DNA from: Anaeromyxobacter soli
GTDB lineage: Bacteria > Myxococcota > Myxococcia > Myxococcales > Anaeromyxobacteraceae
Assembly (NCBI RefSeq): GCF_022808855.1
Contig: NZ_JAKZLF010000005.1
Location: 1 to 51,116, forward strand
Direction of reading: 5' to 3'
DNA: 51,116 nt
Positions 10,007 to 22,630 of this stretch are shown here, piece by piece. Under the pieces are notes generated by a model. The model made no database searches. It saw only the letters and a program-made list of their open reading frames with translations, and had not been told where the DNA came from. The position numbers were made by a program, and so were the translations under genes. Each line of letters opens with the position of its first letter. Position 1 is the stretch's first letter.

Positions 10007-11947
10007 TCAATGGAACGTGGACGCCGGCGGCTCGACGGGGTCCACGGGGTCCACGGGCGCGGCGGGCCCCGGCGGCACCTGCGCCTTCGGCCTCGGCCGC
10101 GTCAGGCTGACGAGGCGCTGCGGCACCCGCCGGATCTTGCCGCGCACCGTCCCCTCGAGCACCTCCACCTCGACGGGAGGCGTCAGCTCGTAGCGGTAGC
10201 CGCGGTGCGGGATGGGCTGCCTGAGCTTCATGCCGCGCCAGGTGAACTCGTGCACGAAGGGCTGGGCGACGAGGCCGTGGCGGACGTGGTCGCGGTGCTG
10301 CAGCAGGAAGGACGCGAGCTGCACCGCGGAGTGGTTGAACAGCCGGTGACAGCCGTGGCTCTCGCTGCCCAGGATCGACTGGTAGCTCACCGAGCCGTGG
10401 GTGCGGATGCCGTTGTCGTACCAGAGCGTGGCGCCCTCGGACTCCACCGGCCGGAGGTGCGGGAGCATCACGAGCCCGTAGGCCGACGCGTAGCCGGGCC
10501 CGAGGAGGTCCGTCTCGGGCAGCCAGCGCTTCGTGCCGTACGCCCGGTGCACGAGCGCGCGGGCCGGCGTCTGCGGCGGCGGCAGCCACGCCGGCGACGC
10601 GACGACGAACCGCCACAGCCGCTTGCCGACGTCGGAGTTCTTGTACCGGAGGCCCACCCGTCCACGCGGCCCCACCTCCTTCTTCCATCCGCCGATGGTG
10701 GTCGGCCAGCGCACGAGCGCGAGCTCCTCTCCGTCGCTGGTGCGCGCGTAGAGCGTGAGCGTGGGCCGGTGCGAGATCCGCCCGCGCCACGTCGGGAGCT
10801 CGTACCAGACGTCCCCGCGGTCGATCTCCGCCCGGAGCTCCATGTGCTCGGCGTGGTACGCGGGGACCGGCGGGAGCCGCAGGGCCACCGCGAGCTGGCG
10901 GGTGGCGCCGACGCCTCGCACGCGGAAGAACGCGGCGGCCGCGCCGGGATCGGTCCACCCCAGCGCCTGCGCAGCCGCCTCCGTCGCGGGAGACACGAGG
11001 TCCGGCGCCCCATCCTCCAGCGCCTCGTACCGATCGGTGGCGTGGAACGCGTCCCCGTCGATGCGCCGGCCCAGGACGGTGCCGCGCGCCGCCGCCGCGC
11101 TGCCGTCCTCGATGAGGCCGGAGGCGTCGACCACGCGCGCGCGCAGGGACCGCAGGAGCGCGCGGAAGTCCAGCTCCCGGCTGTCCTCCGCGAGCGCCCG
11201 GCGGGTCTCGGGATCGAGCGTGCCGCGCGAGACGATGGCGTGCTTGCGCTGGTAGGCCTCGAGCGCCTCCTGCAGCCGCCAGCGCGGCGTCCGCTGCGCG
11301 CCGGGCAGGAGCCGCTCGCACTGGAGCCGCTCCTCGAGCGCGGCGAGCGCGCTCCTCACCGCGGCGGAGGGAGCGCCGTCCTGCGAGGACGGCCGCGGAG
11401 ACGTCGCGAGCGCGTGGAGCGGCGTCGCGTCCACCGCCGCGTGACACAGGTGACGCTCCTCGTCGAGGAGCCGCGCCGAGAGCACCTGGAAGCTCGGGAA
11501 GATCCCGTAGAGCTCGAGGAACGCGTCGCGGCGCGCGCGCTCCCCGTCGGGTCCGGACGGGAACTCCTCGTTCGCCAGGGCGGCGTAGGTCGCGCGGTAC
11601 GGCTGGGGCAGCTGCACCAGGTTCTCGGGATCCCGGAACACGAGCGGCACCCAGCCGTCGGACAGATCCACCACCGTGAGGCCCTCGCGCCGCGCGTCCT
11701 CCGCGCAGACGCGCCCCACCTCGCGACCCGCCTCGAGGACCGGGAGCGGGGAATCGCACGCGGGCGGCGTGTCGGCAGCCGCGAGCGGTGGGCTGGGCTC
11801 CACCGGCTGCGGCTGCGGCGGGGGCGCGCCCGGAGGAGGCGGCGGCTCGGCGAGGCAGCCGCAGAGCAGCACGAGGACCACGGGTGAACCGAGCAGGGAC
11901 CTCCACGATCCCGGCGTCGAGCCGGCCACTCCACCTCGCCGAAGCAC
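10007..11947 (-). CDS. L,D-transpeptidase (YkuD domain) lipoprotein
   Basis: The 646-residue protein begins with a lipoprotein signal (VVLVLLCGC, lipidated Cys 31) and a Pro-rich linker. A middle region (~230-290) contains LQEALEAYQRKHAIVSRGTLDPETRRALAEDS, resembling a peptidoglycan-binding repeat. The YkuD catalytic domain follows (~370-600) with the signature THGSVSYQSILGSESHGCHRLFNH read across H517, H531 and nucleophile C533. Such enzymes make 3-3 crosslinks in peptidoglycan or attach lipoproteins to it. The domain is larger than in typical YkuD proteins, more like the YcbB class. A Pro/Val repeat (PVDPVDPVEPP) closes the C terminus. The GTG start at 11947 is uncertain, since a GTG at 11929 is also possible. 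It is divergent from a thiol-redox operon with an OmpA-like gene, which fits a shared cell-wall theme. Confidence 0.82.
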   Translation of the reverse strand: MLRRGGVAGSTPGSWRSLLGSPVVLVLLCGCLAEPPPPPGAPPPQPQPVEPSPPLAAADTPPACDSPLPVLEAGREVGRVCAEDARREGLTVVDLSDGWVPLVFRDPENLVQLPQPYRATYAALANEEFPSGPDGERARRDAFLELYGIFPSFQVLSARLLDEERHLCHAAVDATPLHALATSPRPSSQDGAPSAAVRSALAALEERLQCERLLPGAQRTPRWRLQEALEAYQRKHAIVSRGTLDPETRRALAEDSRELDFRALLRSLRARVVDASGLIEDGSAAAARGTVLGRRIDGDAFHATDRYEALEDGAPDLVSPATEAAAQALGWTDPGAAAAFFRVRGVGATRQLAVALRLPPVPAYHAEHMELRAEIDRGDVWYELPTWRGRISHRPTLTLYARTSDGEELALVRWPTTIGGWKKEVGPRGRVGLRYKNSDVGKRLWRFVVASPAWLPPPQTPARALVHRAYGTKRWLPETDLLGPGYASAYGLVMLPHLRPVESEGATLWYDNGIRTHGSVSYQSILGSESHGCHRLFNHSAVQLASFLLQHRDHVRHGLVAQPFVHEFTWRGMKLRQPIPHRGYRYELTPPVEVEVLEGTVRGKIRRVPQRLVSLTRPRPKAQVPPGPAAPVDPVDPVEPPASTFH

Positions 11948-12114: not shown

Positions 12115-13728
12115 ATGACCACGCACGACCCGGCGTTCACGGAGCACCTGCACGGCGAGCCACCCGGGCGCGAGGAGCCGCGCGCCGGTCGCCCACCTCC
12201 GGGGCGGCGCGCCGCCTTCCCGCGCGCGGCCGTCGCCGTCGCGCTCGCGGGGGCGCTCCTCGGCGCGGTGTTCGCCGCGCTCAGCACGAGCGACTTCATG
12301 CAGCACCTCGATCGGCAGGTGCACGCCATCCACTGCTCCTTCCTGCCCGGAGCCGCGAAGGACGTCGCGGCGAGCGGCTGCAGGACCGTGATGATGAGCC
12401 CCTACAGCTCGCTCTTCCGCGAGAGCCTGTGGGGCGGGATCCCGGTGAGCCTCTGGGCGCTGGCGGTCTTCGCGTTCCTCGCCTATCGGGCCGCGCTCCT
12501 GCTGTGGCGGCGCCAGGCCTCCGCGGGCGACGCGAAGGTGCTGCTCGCGGCGGCCGCCCTGCCGGTGGCGATGTCCGTACTGTTCGGCGCGGTCTCGATC
12601 TTCTTGCTGGAGGCCGTCTGCAAGGTCTGCATCGGCATCTACGCCGCGAGCGCGCTGTGCTTCGCCGGCGCGCTCCTGGCGTACCGGGCCGTGCGCGCCG
12701 CGCCGGGCGAGGCGCGGTTCGCGGCGGCCCTGCTGGAAGGGACGGCGCTCGTCGCCGCGGTGACGCTGGCCTACGTCGCGTCCGTGCCGAGGCCGGATCC
12801 CCGCACCTCGACGCAGGGGTGCGGCGCGCTCGTCCACGCCGAGGACGGCGCGGGCGTGATGATCCCGCTCACCGCCAGCGCGGGCGGGACCCCCTCGGTC
12901 GAGGTGCTCGATCCGCTGTGCGCGTCCTGCAAGGCGTTCGACGCGAGGCTCGCGGCGAGCTCGCTCGGCGAGCGCCTCGACCTGAAGGGCGTGCTGTTCC
13001 CGCTCGACTCCCGGTGCAACTGGATGGTGACGGAGGCGATCCACCCCGGCGCCTGCGCGGTCAGCGAGGCGGTCCTCTGCGCGGCCGGCGTCGGCCAGGG
13101 GCCGAAGAACGCCGCCGCCGCGGGGGCCGTGCTCCGGTGGGCCTTCGCCCGCCAGACGGAGCTCCGCGCGCTCGGCGCCCGCGACGAGGCCGGGCTGCGG
13201 GCCGAGATCGAGCGCGAGTTCCCCGCGGTCGCCGGCTGCCTCGGCGGCGCGCTCGTGAGGAGCAAGCTCACGAAGAGCCTGCGCTGGGCGGTCGCCAACG
13301 CGATCCCGGTGCTCACGCCTCAGCTGTTCGTGGGCGACGCGCGGATGTGCGACGAGGACACCGACCTCGGCCTCGAGTACACGCTCTCCCGCATGCTCTC
13401 GCCCGAGGCCGCGCAGGAGCGCGCGCGCAGGCGCGCCGCCGAGCCGCCGCGGCCTCCGCCCCCACCGCCGCGCGCGGACCTGCAGGCGAGCGCGGCCGCG
13501 GCGCCGCCGGAGGTGGAGCCCCAGCTCCGGACCCCCGCCGCTCCTCGCGCGGTGGAGGCGCCCCCGGCGGCGCCCGGTGCGGAGGCTCCCCCGCCCCCGC
13601 CGAGCCCGGCGGAGGCCGTGCAGGACGAGGCGCGCCCCGGACCGGCTCCGGAGCCGACCCCGTCCCCGTCTGACGCAGAGTCGCCGGCAGAGACCCCGAA
13701 GCCCTCGCACGTGGAGACCGAGCGATGA
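12115..13728 (+). CDS. VKOR-DsbA-like fusion, membrane thiol oxidase
   Basis: The 537-residue protein joins two halves of a disulfide-forming system. The membrane half (~34-224) shows the bacterial vitamin K epoxide reductase pattern: a periplasmic loop with C74 and C89, a membrane helix ending in the redox pair C169-K-V-C172, and four or five hydrophobic helices. Next comes a DsbA-like thioredoxin-fold domain (~235-425) with C269-A-S-C272 and the cis-proline region VLTPQLFVG (P402). Extra cysteines (301, 314, 322, 375, 412) are present. The last ~100 residues are a Pro/Ala-rich low-complexity tail. By family knowledge the DsbA part oxidises exported proteins and passes electrons through VKOR to quinone. 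ATG 12115 (GTG 12112 just before it) has no ribosome site. The stop overlaps the next ATG by 4 bp. Confidence 0.82.
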   Translation: MTTHDPAFTEHLHGEPPGREEPRAGRPPPGRRAAFPRAAVAVALAGALLGAVFAALSTSDFMQHLDRQVHAIHCSFLPGAAKDVAASGCRTVMMSPYSSLFRESLWGGIPVSLWALAVFAFLAYRAALLLWRRQASAGDAKVLLAAAALPVAMSVLFGAVSIFLLEAVCKVCIGIYAASALCFAGALLAYRAVRAAPGEARFAAALLEGTALVAAVTLAYVASVPRPDPRTSTQGCGALVHAEDGAGVMIPLTASAGGTPSVEVLDPLCASCKAFDARLAASSLGERLDLKGVLFPLDSRCNWMVTEAIHPGACAVSEAVLCAAGVGQGPKNAAAAGAVLRWAFARQTELRALGARDEAGLRAEIEREFPAVAGCLGGALVRSKLTKSLRWAVANAIPVLTPQLFVGDARMCDEDTDLGLEYTLSRMLSPEAAQERARRRAAEPPRPPPPPPRADLQASAAAAPPEVEPQLRTPAAPRAVEAPPAAPGAEAPPPPPSPAEAVQDEARPGPAPEPTPSPSDAESPAETPKPSHVETER

Positions 13729-14414
13729 ACGACACCTCGAGGCGCTGGATCCTGCTCGCCGCGGCGCTCGCGATCCCGGCGGCGCTCGTCGTCACCTGGG
13801 CCCGCGCCGCCCAGGCCCGGCTCGACGCCACGCAGGGCGCCGCGCGCGAGGTCGCGACGGCGAGCGTGTCGAACGACGCCTACTGCACGCCGGAGCTGAA
13901 GGCGATCGTCCGCCGCGTCGCGGGCGCGTGCGGGCTGCTCGACGGCGGCGGTGGCGGCCGCGGCTGCCAGCCCCTCCAGGCCAGGAAGGTCGCCGCGCTG
14001 TCCGGCAGCGACTTCAACGCGCTCTTCCGGCCGCTGGCGCACCGGGCGCACATCGTCCAGTTCGATCCCACGAAGGCGGAGCTGGATCCGGCGGCGCGCG
14101 CCCTCGTGGAGAAGGCCTGGAGCGATCAGCGCGGCGCCAGCTTCTTCTTCGTGGTCTCGCGCGCCAGCCCCGACGGCGACGAGCAGTACAACGAGGCGCT
14201 GAGCCGCGACCGCGCGAAGGCGGTGCTGGATCACCTCGACGCGAGGTTCCACGACGAGGACCTCAGGAAGCAGGTGGGCCTCCTGTGGCTGGGCGAGGAG
14301 TTCGCGCAGCTCCCGACCGAGTTCTGCGGCTGGGACCGCTCGCGCGCCGGGGCGTGCAGCCACGCCGACATCAACCGCAGCGCCTTCGTCGCCTGGATCG
14401 ACTGTGCGATCTGA
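13725..14414 (+). CDS. Cysteine-rich OmpA-like periplasmic protein
   Basis: The 229-residue protein has an N-terminal hydrophobic segment (~8-24, WILLAAALAIPAALVV) that is a signal or membrane anchor. The C-terminal half is OmpA-like: IVQFDPTKAELDPAARALVEKAW near 107, then YNEALSRDRAKAVLDHLDARF near 155, the core helices of the peptidoglycan-binding fold, although the canonical HTD and NRR motifs are altered. It has six cysteines (AYC, GAC, GC, FC, AC, DC), which is unusual for this fold, and the even number suggests structural disulfides. Its place between the VKOR-DsbA gene (4-bp ATGA overlap) and the TlpA-like gene (11-bp overlap) makes it a likely substrate or partner of those enzymes. 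The role is inferred from context. Confidence 0.7.
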   Translation: MNDTSRRWILLAAALAIPAALVVTWARAAQARLDATQGAAREVATASVSNDAYCTPELKAIVRRVAGACGLLDGGGGGRGCQPLQARKVAALSGSDFNALFRPLAHRAHIVQFDPTKAELDPAARALVEKAWSDQRGASFFFVVSRASPDGDEQYNEALSRDRAKAVLDHLDARFHDEDLRKQVGLLWLGEEFAQLPTEFCGWDRSRAGACSHADINRSAFVAWIDCAI

Positions 14415-15048
14415 GCGGTTCGCGTGGACGGGGGCCGCGCTCCTCTCCGTCGCGCTCGCGCTCGCCTGCCGGGAGGGGCCCGGCGCCGGGGAGGCGGCCC
14501 TCCCGGAGCGCTTCGCCGGCGTGCGGAAGCAGGCCGCCACGGCCGCGGCGGCGCAGAGCGCGTTCTGCGAGCGGAGCTATCCCGCCGGCGGCGAGGGCGC
14601 CCGCCGCTACGCTGCGCCCCCGCAGCGACCGCTGCCCGGCGCGAGCGATCCCGGCGGCGCTGCCGGCGCGCCGGGGAAGGCCTGGACCTGGGTGAACCTC
14701 TGGGCCACCTGGTGCACCCCGTGCGTCGACGAGCTGGAGCTGCTCCGCCGCTGGCGGGACGGCTTCGCGCGTGACGGCGTGGACGTCCGCCTCGAGCTCG
14801 TCAGCATCGACGCCGCCGACCGTGGGCAGGAGCTCGTCGCGTGGCGCGCGAAGGGGCTGCCCGGACGACTTTCCTGGCTCCGCTCCGAGGGAGATCTCGG
14901 GCCGCTGCTCGACTCGCTCGGGGTGGAGCGGGACGCGATGATCCCGATCCACGCGCTCGTCGACGGCGCCGGCTGGATCCGCTGCGTCCGCGTCGGCGCG
15001 GTGCACGAGCAGGACTACGCCGCGGTGAAGGGGCTCCTCGGGCGCTGA
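14404..15048 (+). CDS. TlpA/thioredoxin-like lipoprotein
   Basis: The 214-residue protein has a lipoprotein signal (SVALALAC, lipidated Cys 22). The thioredoxin-fold domain contains TWVNLWATWCTPCVDELELL, with the active pair C104-T-P-C107, and a cis-proline in MIPIHALVDG (P181). The WCTPC motif is that of TlpA/ResA-type proteins, which usually reduce specific disulfides in the envelope. Two more cysteines (C55 and one near 195) lie outside the active site. GTG 14404 overlaps the previous coding sequence by 11 bp. A reductant-type protein in one operon with a VKOR-DsbA oxidase suggests a dedicated pathway with both oxidation and reduction or isomerisation. Partner specificity is inference. Confidence 0.8.
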   Translation: MRSERFAWTGAALLSVALALACREGPGAGEAALPERFAGVRKQAATAAAAQSAFCERSYPAGGEGARRYAAPPQRPLPGASDPGGAAGAPGKAWTWVNLWATWCTPCVDELELLRRWRDGFARDGVDVRLELVSIDAADRGQELVAWRAKGLPGRLSWLRSEGDLGPLLDSLGVERDAMIPIHALVDGAGWIRCVRVGAVHEQDYAAVKGLLGR

Positions 15049-21853: not shown

Positions 21854-22630
21854 ATGCGCACCGTCGTCGTCGTCGCCCTCGTCGGGCTCACGTCTGCCTG
21901 CGTCTCCTCGGGAAAGTTCCGCAACAAGTCCGCCGAGGCCGACGAGCTGCGGGCGCACGGGGCCGAGCTCGAGGCCACCCTCGCGCGGACCAACGGCGAG
22001 CTCGAGAAGCGCACCGAGGAGGCCCGCGCCCTCCAGGCGCAGGTCGCCGAGCTCTCCTCGTCGCGGGGCACGCTCGAGGCGCGCGTGAACGAGCTCTCGA
22101 CGTCCAAGAGCAAGCTCGAGACCGTCAAGGCGGAGCTCGAGAAGAAGAGCTCGGAGTACGAGAAGATGGCGAACGCGCTGCGCGGAGAGATCGACGCGGG
22201 CCGCGTCGAGCTCACCGAGCTCCGCGGCAAGATGACCGTCAAGATGAAGGACAAGATCCTCTTCTCCTCGGGCTCGGCGACGCTCGGCAAGCCCGGCAAG
22301 GGCGCGCTCGCGGCGGTCGCGGAGGTCCTGCGCGGCGTGGAGGGCAAGGTCATCCGCGTCGAGGGGCACACCGACAACGTGCCGCTCGGCCGCGGCGGGT
22401 TCGTGTCGAACTGGGACCTGTCGGTCGCGCGCGCCCTCGCGGTCGTGAGGTTCCTGCAGGAGGCGGGGGTCGAGCCGACGCGCCTCGCCGCCGCGGGCTA
22501 CGGCGAGTACCAGCCCATCGCCCCGAACGACACGCCGGAGGGCCGCAGCCAGAACCGGCGCATCGAGATCGTCCTCGCGCCCGGCGAGGCACCCGTCCCC
22601 GCTCCCGCGCCCGCTCCCGCGGCGCTGTGA
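21854..22630 (+). CDS. OmpA-family lipoprotein with coiled coil
   Basis: The 258-residue protein has a lipobox (GLTSAC, lipidated Cys 16), a long Glu/Ala/Leu/Lys heptad-type coiled coil (~28-125; LEATLARTNGELEKRTEEA, then LETVKAELEKKSSEYEKM) and a C-terminal OmpA-like peptidoglycan-binding domain (~132-250) with ILFSSGSATL, VEGHTDNVPL, WDLSVARALAVVRFL and GRSQNRRIEIVLAPG. It likely bridges the outer membrane and the cell wall, with the coiled coil as spacer or trimer stalk, in the manner of Pal/MotB-tail proteins. ATG 21854 has GGAGGT 5 bp upstream, better placed than for the in-frame GTG at 21851. A Pro/Ala tail ends the protein. Confidence 0.88.
   Translation: MRTVVVVALVGLTSACVSSGKFRNKSAEADELRAHGAELEATLARTNGELEKRTEEARALQAQVAELSSSRGTLEARVNELSTSKSKLETVKAELEKKSSEYEKMANALRGEIDAGRVELTELRGKMTVKMKDKILFSSGSATLGKPGKGALAAVAEVLRGVEGKVIRVEGHTDNVPLGRGGFVSNWDLSVARALAVVRFLQEAGVEPTRLAAAGYGEYQPIAPNDTPEGRSQNRRIEIVLAPGEAPVPAPAPAPAAL

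Follow-up and report, generated by a model that had tools for sequence, protein, structure and literature searches.

What joins a disulfide-forming enzyme, a cysteine-rich OmpA-like protein and a TlpA-like predicted lipoprotein in one set of overlapping genes, and on which protein would the enzymes act? The three genes lie on the forward strand of the window, the 51,116-nucleotide stretch of Anaeromyxobacter soli DNA analyzed here. The gene for P1, a VKOR–DsbA fusion of 537 aa (12115–13728), overlaps by 4 bases that for P2, the cysteine-rich OmpA-like protein of 229 aa (13725–14414), which in turn overlaps by 11 bases that for P3, the TlpA-like predicted lipoprotein of 214 aa (14404–15048, GTG start). 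A preliminary description had reported three overlapping genes at this site, with CxxC pairs at C169/C172 and C269/C272 of P1, a WCTPC motif at C104–C107 of P3 and six cysteines in P2 (C54, C69, C81, C201, C211 and C227), and all of these were confirmed. It had further proposed that P1 and P3 act in opposite directions on P2, as their dedicated client, to control its attachment to the cell wall.

The VKOR domain of P1 was matched in Pfam (PF07884) at 61.1 bits against a cut-off of 27.5 (E = 1.6e-16). P1 has the VKOR pattern of a loop CXnC between TM1 and TM2 and a CXXC at TM4, and the cysteines concerned (C74, C89, C169 and C172) are kept in 27 of 27 aligned sequences. Tyr176, conserved in the same alignment, occupies the CXXC+4 position, which in VKOR belongs to the quinone site (PMC11208910). 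The thioredoxin-like part, with CASC (C269/C272) as its active site, gave no Pfam thioredoxin or DSBA match on its own; it was recognized as DsbA-like by alignment to the housekeeping VKOR–DsbA, through the CXXC, a TP motif and four more cysteines. Where only two cysteines had been implied for this part, the alignment revealed eight that are conserved, C236, C301, C314, C322, C375 and C412 in addition to the active-site pair. In total, 12 of the 13 P1 cysteines are invariant (four VKOR and eight thioredoxin-like), the variable one being C182. The C-terminal tail of P1 (13402–13725) is proline/alanine-rich, about 105 residues long and variable; most orthologues lack it, the exceptions being Anaeromyxobacter and a few more.

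The genome has only two VKORs, P1 and the housekeeping VKOR–DsbA (L099 8343–9545). Common to both are the VKOR CXnC and CXXC, an aromatic residue at CXXC+4, the DsbA-like CXXC, the cysteines of the ACN, HPxAC and LC/IC motifs and a Thr-cisPro motif, the shared thioredoxin-like cysteines being C269, C272, C301, C314, C322 and C375. The loop cysteines are separated by 14 residues in P1 versus 7 in the housekeeping protein, the active site is mostly CPAC in trio P1 proteins (CASC here) versus CPFC, and C236 and C412 are particular to trio P1 and absent from its housekeeping counterpart. In the searched genomes the P1 type, unlike the housekeeping VKOR–DsbA, was seen only within the trio. Because a separate housekeeping enzyme exists, P1 is, judged by its sequence, a specialized copy of VKOR–DsbA.

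P3 was assigned by sequence profiles to the DsbE/TlpA/ResA-like proteins, with a lipobox cysteine at C22, and its profile matched PDB structures of TlpA and ResA at E values of 1e-9 to 1e-11. The residues C104, P106, C107, E110 and P181 are invariant and form the WCxPC motif, the Glu after the motif and the cis-Pro that, together with membrane anchoring, P3 has in common with TlpA, ResA and CcmG (DsbE), for example Helicobacter pylori HP0377. HP0377, which is of the CcmG type, can act as an isomerase too; CcdA returns it to the reduced form, and a separate oxidase operates beside it (PMC4491210). P3 differs from these reductases in being encoded next to an oxidase and not among cytochrome-maturation genes, and in having two extra invariant cysteines, C55 and C194; its best score against curated profiles falls well short of every cut-off. 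Outside the lipobox, C55, C104, C107 and C194 are all invariant where aligned, and the C55–C194 pair may match a structural disulfide of TlpA. In many P3 orthologues the residue after the lipid-bearing Cys is Asp or Glu; an Asp at this position favors inner-membrane retention in Escherichia coli, and myxobacterial rules differ. Two DsbD_TM proteins are encoded elsewhere in the genome.

P2 starts with a hydrophobic stretch at residues ~9–27, a putative anchor or signal without a conserved lipobox, followed by a cysteine-rich segment (C54, C69 and C81) and an OmpA-like domain at ~108–229 that contains C201, C211 and C227. Its score against PF00691 was 22.5 bits, below the Pfam cut-off of 27.2; all 27 orthologues scanned matched OmpA PF00691 (E up to 0.1), and the P2 profile matched OmpA/Pal structures. 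AlphaFold models of P2 and P1, made with five sequences only, had pLDDT values of 53–54. Foldseek with the weak P2 model gave OmpA-like proteins as the best matches (probability 1.00, target TM mostly ~0.5–0.7, E ~2e-3), and the disulfide pairs of P2 are unreadable from structure because the models are poor. The OmpA-like label given earlier therefore stands for the fold, as the profile and Foldseek matches attest, and fails for an outer-membrane OmpA, since P2 combines an N-terminal hydrophobic segment with the lack of a lipobox or barrel. With the OmpA C-terminal domain and Pal, P2 shares the fold, the N-x2-LS-x2-RA motif and a C290–C302-like cysteine pair; it differs in having four additional invariant cysteines, no barrel, no lipid anchor, Ser instead of Asp at the diaminopimelate (DAP) site and a last segment that reads NRSAF versus NRRVE. 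An OmpA/MotB-like domain with a normal GHTD motif, scoring above the Pfam cut-off, is encoded in the same window at 22259–22558 (+).

Conservation of the P2 cysteines in orthologues had been put forward as a check on the proposal, and in the alignment all six are invariant except for Ser at 201 in a single genome, G192. C201 and C211 fall on C290 and C302 of E. coli OmpA in a joint multiple alignment, on which this match rests; a profile-to-sequence alignment placed the P2 tail differently. As C290–C302 is a known disulfide of E. coli OmpA (PMC11833770), the C201–C211 pair is likely to be structural. The six cysteines would form up to three disulfides, including C201–C211. With three cysteines in each half of P2, full pairing would require at least one bond that links the two halves; C54, C69, C81 and C227 could all be paired only with C227 bound to a cysteine of the N-terminal segment. 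The G192 protein (L086 8065–8688) has Ser201 while its relatives keep Cys, either a real change or an assembly error.

The proposed redox control of wall attachment fared less well. Ser148 takes the place of the DAP-binding Asp in 27 of 27 aligned P2 sequences, whereas this Asp is kept in the six OmpA domains aligned from the same genome and in E. coli OmpA. The OmpA of Acinetobacter baumannii requires Asp271 as well as Arg286 (PMC6572160). P2 keeps Arg163 together with Asn156 of the peptidoglycan motif. Canonical DAP binding by P2 is unlikely. A predicted L,D-transpeptidase with an SHGCHR motif, encoded divergently from the trio (10007–11947, minus strand), had been held to strengthen the cell-wall link. 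Its gene occurs in 3 of 24 Anaeromyxobacteraceae genomes, all three of them trio-bearing, and adjoins the trio in these three Anaeromyxobacter only: it was not found in a fourth trio-bearing Anaeromyxobacter (a 66% complete genome in which the trio contig has other upstream genes), and it is absent beside the trio in all other families. The transpeptidase is at most a local addition to the trio, and in Anaeromyxobacter the two may have been acquired together. A switch in which P1 and P3 toggle peptidoglycan binding by P2, with the transpeptidase as part of the system, would accord with the OmpA-like fold, the retained Arg163 and Asn156 and the restriction of the transpeptidase, within Anaeromyxobacteraceae, to trio-carrying genomes; against the invariant Ser148 and the transpeptidase distribution, we regard it as highly improbable. 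On these two grounds, wall attachment and the transpeptidase link were rejected as general properties of the trio.

The co-occurrence of the three genes, likewise suggested earlier as a check, was surveyed in 195 Myxococcota genomes. P2 was found in exactly 30 of them, with a clean gap between carriers (E < 1e-43) and the next best match (4e-6); the match in G021 and the rows at E 1e-5 to 1e-6 were other OmpA domains and were excluded from the carriers. Using a 71-residue fragment of the VKOR part as the query, P1 was detected in 29 genomes, all P2 carriers, and nowhere else among the 195; in the thirtieth carrier, G066, only 121 bases of contig precede P2, which puts P1 out of view. P3 relatives were present in 30 of 30 carriers. 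The carriers make up a scattered myxobacterial subset of 19 genera and 11 families, across which gene order and strand are conserved. P1 and P2 are adjacent wherever both are visible (gap of −4 to +140 bases, an ATGA overlap being commonest), and P2 and P3 are at most 180 bases apart except in G017, in which a kelch-like gene (L083 11798–12967) separates them, and in G185 (L090 7439–8047) and G184 (L094 8330–8947), in which P3 is on a different contig from P1–P2. In these two related genomes P3, apart from its partners, still has all its cysteines. G193 has a contig break inside P2, and G142 an additional P3 relative, a fragment at a contig end. Because order, strand, overlap and cysteines are conserved in 30 genomes from 11 families, a chance arrangement is excluded.

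Comparison of the carrier neighborhoods revealed no fourth conserved gene beside the trio beyond close relatives; upstream ORFs that recurred as apparently shared in L083, L085 and L087 proved to be different Ser/Thr kinases. No trio was found in plasmid searches. An exact-peptide scan of ~85,000 species genomes, a method that reaches only close relatives, returned four Myxococcota loci, the closest named relative of the operon being A. terrae SG22. Trees of P1, P2 and P3 group largely by family, and their largely concordant form would fit either block transfer or an old trio that was inherited jointly and lost many times. The trio might be ordinary accessory genes for envelope folding: a second VKOR–DsbA of general function (P1), a likewise general TlpA (P3) and an unrelated protein hitchhiking in the operon (P2). 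TlpA-like proteins are indeed common, and four of the extra cysteines in the thioredoxin domain of P1 are also found in the housekeeping VKOR–DsbA; hitchhiking, however, would not be expected to yield perfect co-occurrence across 19 genera and 11 families while the flanking genes change, and this explanation is quite improbable.

The reading of the trio as a dedicated module is well supported, because neither the co-occurrence survey nor the conservation of the P2 cysteines refuted it. As expected of a dedicated oxidase–client pair, a specialized oxidase is co-inherited with one cysteine-containing protein, besides a housekeeping oxidase. In the simplest reading, an oxidase and a reductase or isomerase work together around a single partner rich in cysteines. 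The VKOR part of P1 would pass electrons to quinone and reoxidize its own DsbA-like domain, which in turn would oxidize periplasmic cysteines to form de novo disulfides. P3 would reduce or isomerize disulfides; its recharging would probably fall to a CcdA/DsbD-type protein from elsewhere in the genome, for which the two DsbD_TM proteins are candidates. P2 would be a small membrane-tethered or exported protein and the obligate partner of P1 and P3. The analysis establishes the gene identities, their co-occurrence, the conservation and the catalytic residues; the reaction directions, the client status and the disulfide pairing are what we infer from these. Whereas the module itself is upheld by co-inheritance and cysteine conservation, the dedicated client status that had been proposed for P2 on top of it is, from the same evidence, plausible, as main client or as obligate partner; co-occurrence alone gives no pointer to which member of the trio is the client, and all P2 cysteines could be structural and made by the housekeeping VKOR–DsbA.

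Alternatively, P2 could be a membrane-tethered adaptor or scaffold whose disulfides are structural and which docks P1 and P3, bringing them to unlinked cysteine-rich clients. P2 is conserved as strictly as the enzymes and was never found without them in the genomes surveyed, the loss of its DAP-binding Asp suggests a protein- rather than wall-binding surface, and OmpA-like domains can bind proteins, YfiB–YfiR and TolB–Pal complexes being among the Foldseek matches. No unlinked client is known, however, and genes for dedicated oxidases usually lie beside that of the client, as in DsbL/DsbI–AssT; we consider an adaptor role possible, at about one chance among several. That P2 is a true thiol switch, oxidized by quinone-linked P1 and reduced by P3, so that its disulfide state mirrors or influences respiration in the cell envelope, is distinctly unlikely. 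On balance we lean toward the trio being a self-contained periplasmic thiol-redox module, in which P1 and P3 have P2 as an obligate partner and, most probably, as their main client.

Dedicated redox/client operons are already known as a class. DsbL/DsbI is a specialized oxidase pair encoded with its client, the arylsulfate sulfotransferase AssT, besides a housekeeping system, and the trio resembles it in encoding a specialized oxidase with a candidate client. The two differ in that the DsbL/DsbI–AssT oxidase system is of the DsbB type rather than VKOR, has no reductase in the unit and serves a client unrelated to P2. DsbL and its substrate AssT are discussed in PMC12724015. The preliminary description knew of no pathway with the layout of the trio, and no description of it was found in the open-licence papers that we searched. 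Thiol enzymes that oxidize and those that reduce are usually separated from one another and have many proteins as substrates. An oxidase, a reductase and a cysteine-rich partner that are strictly inherited together would offer a compact natural system for studying how a single client is matched to opposing enzymes, and with the trio comes a further family of OmpA-like proteins, one that has seemingly abandoned canonical wall binding.
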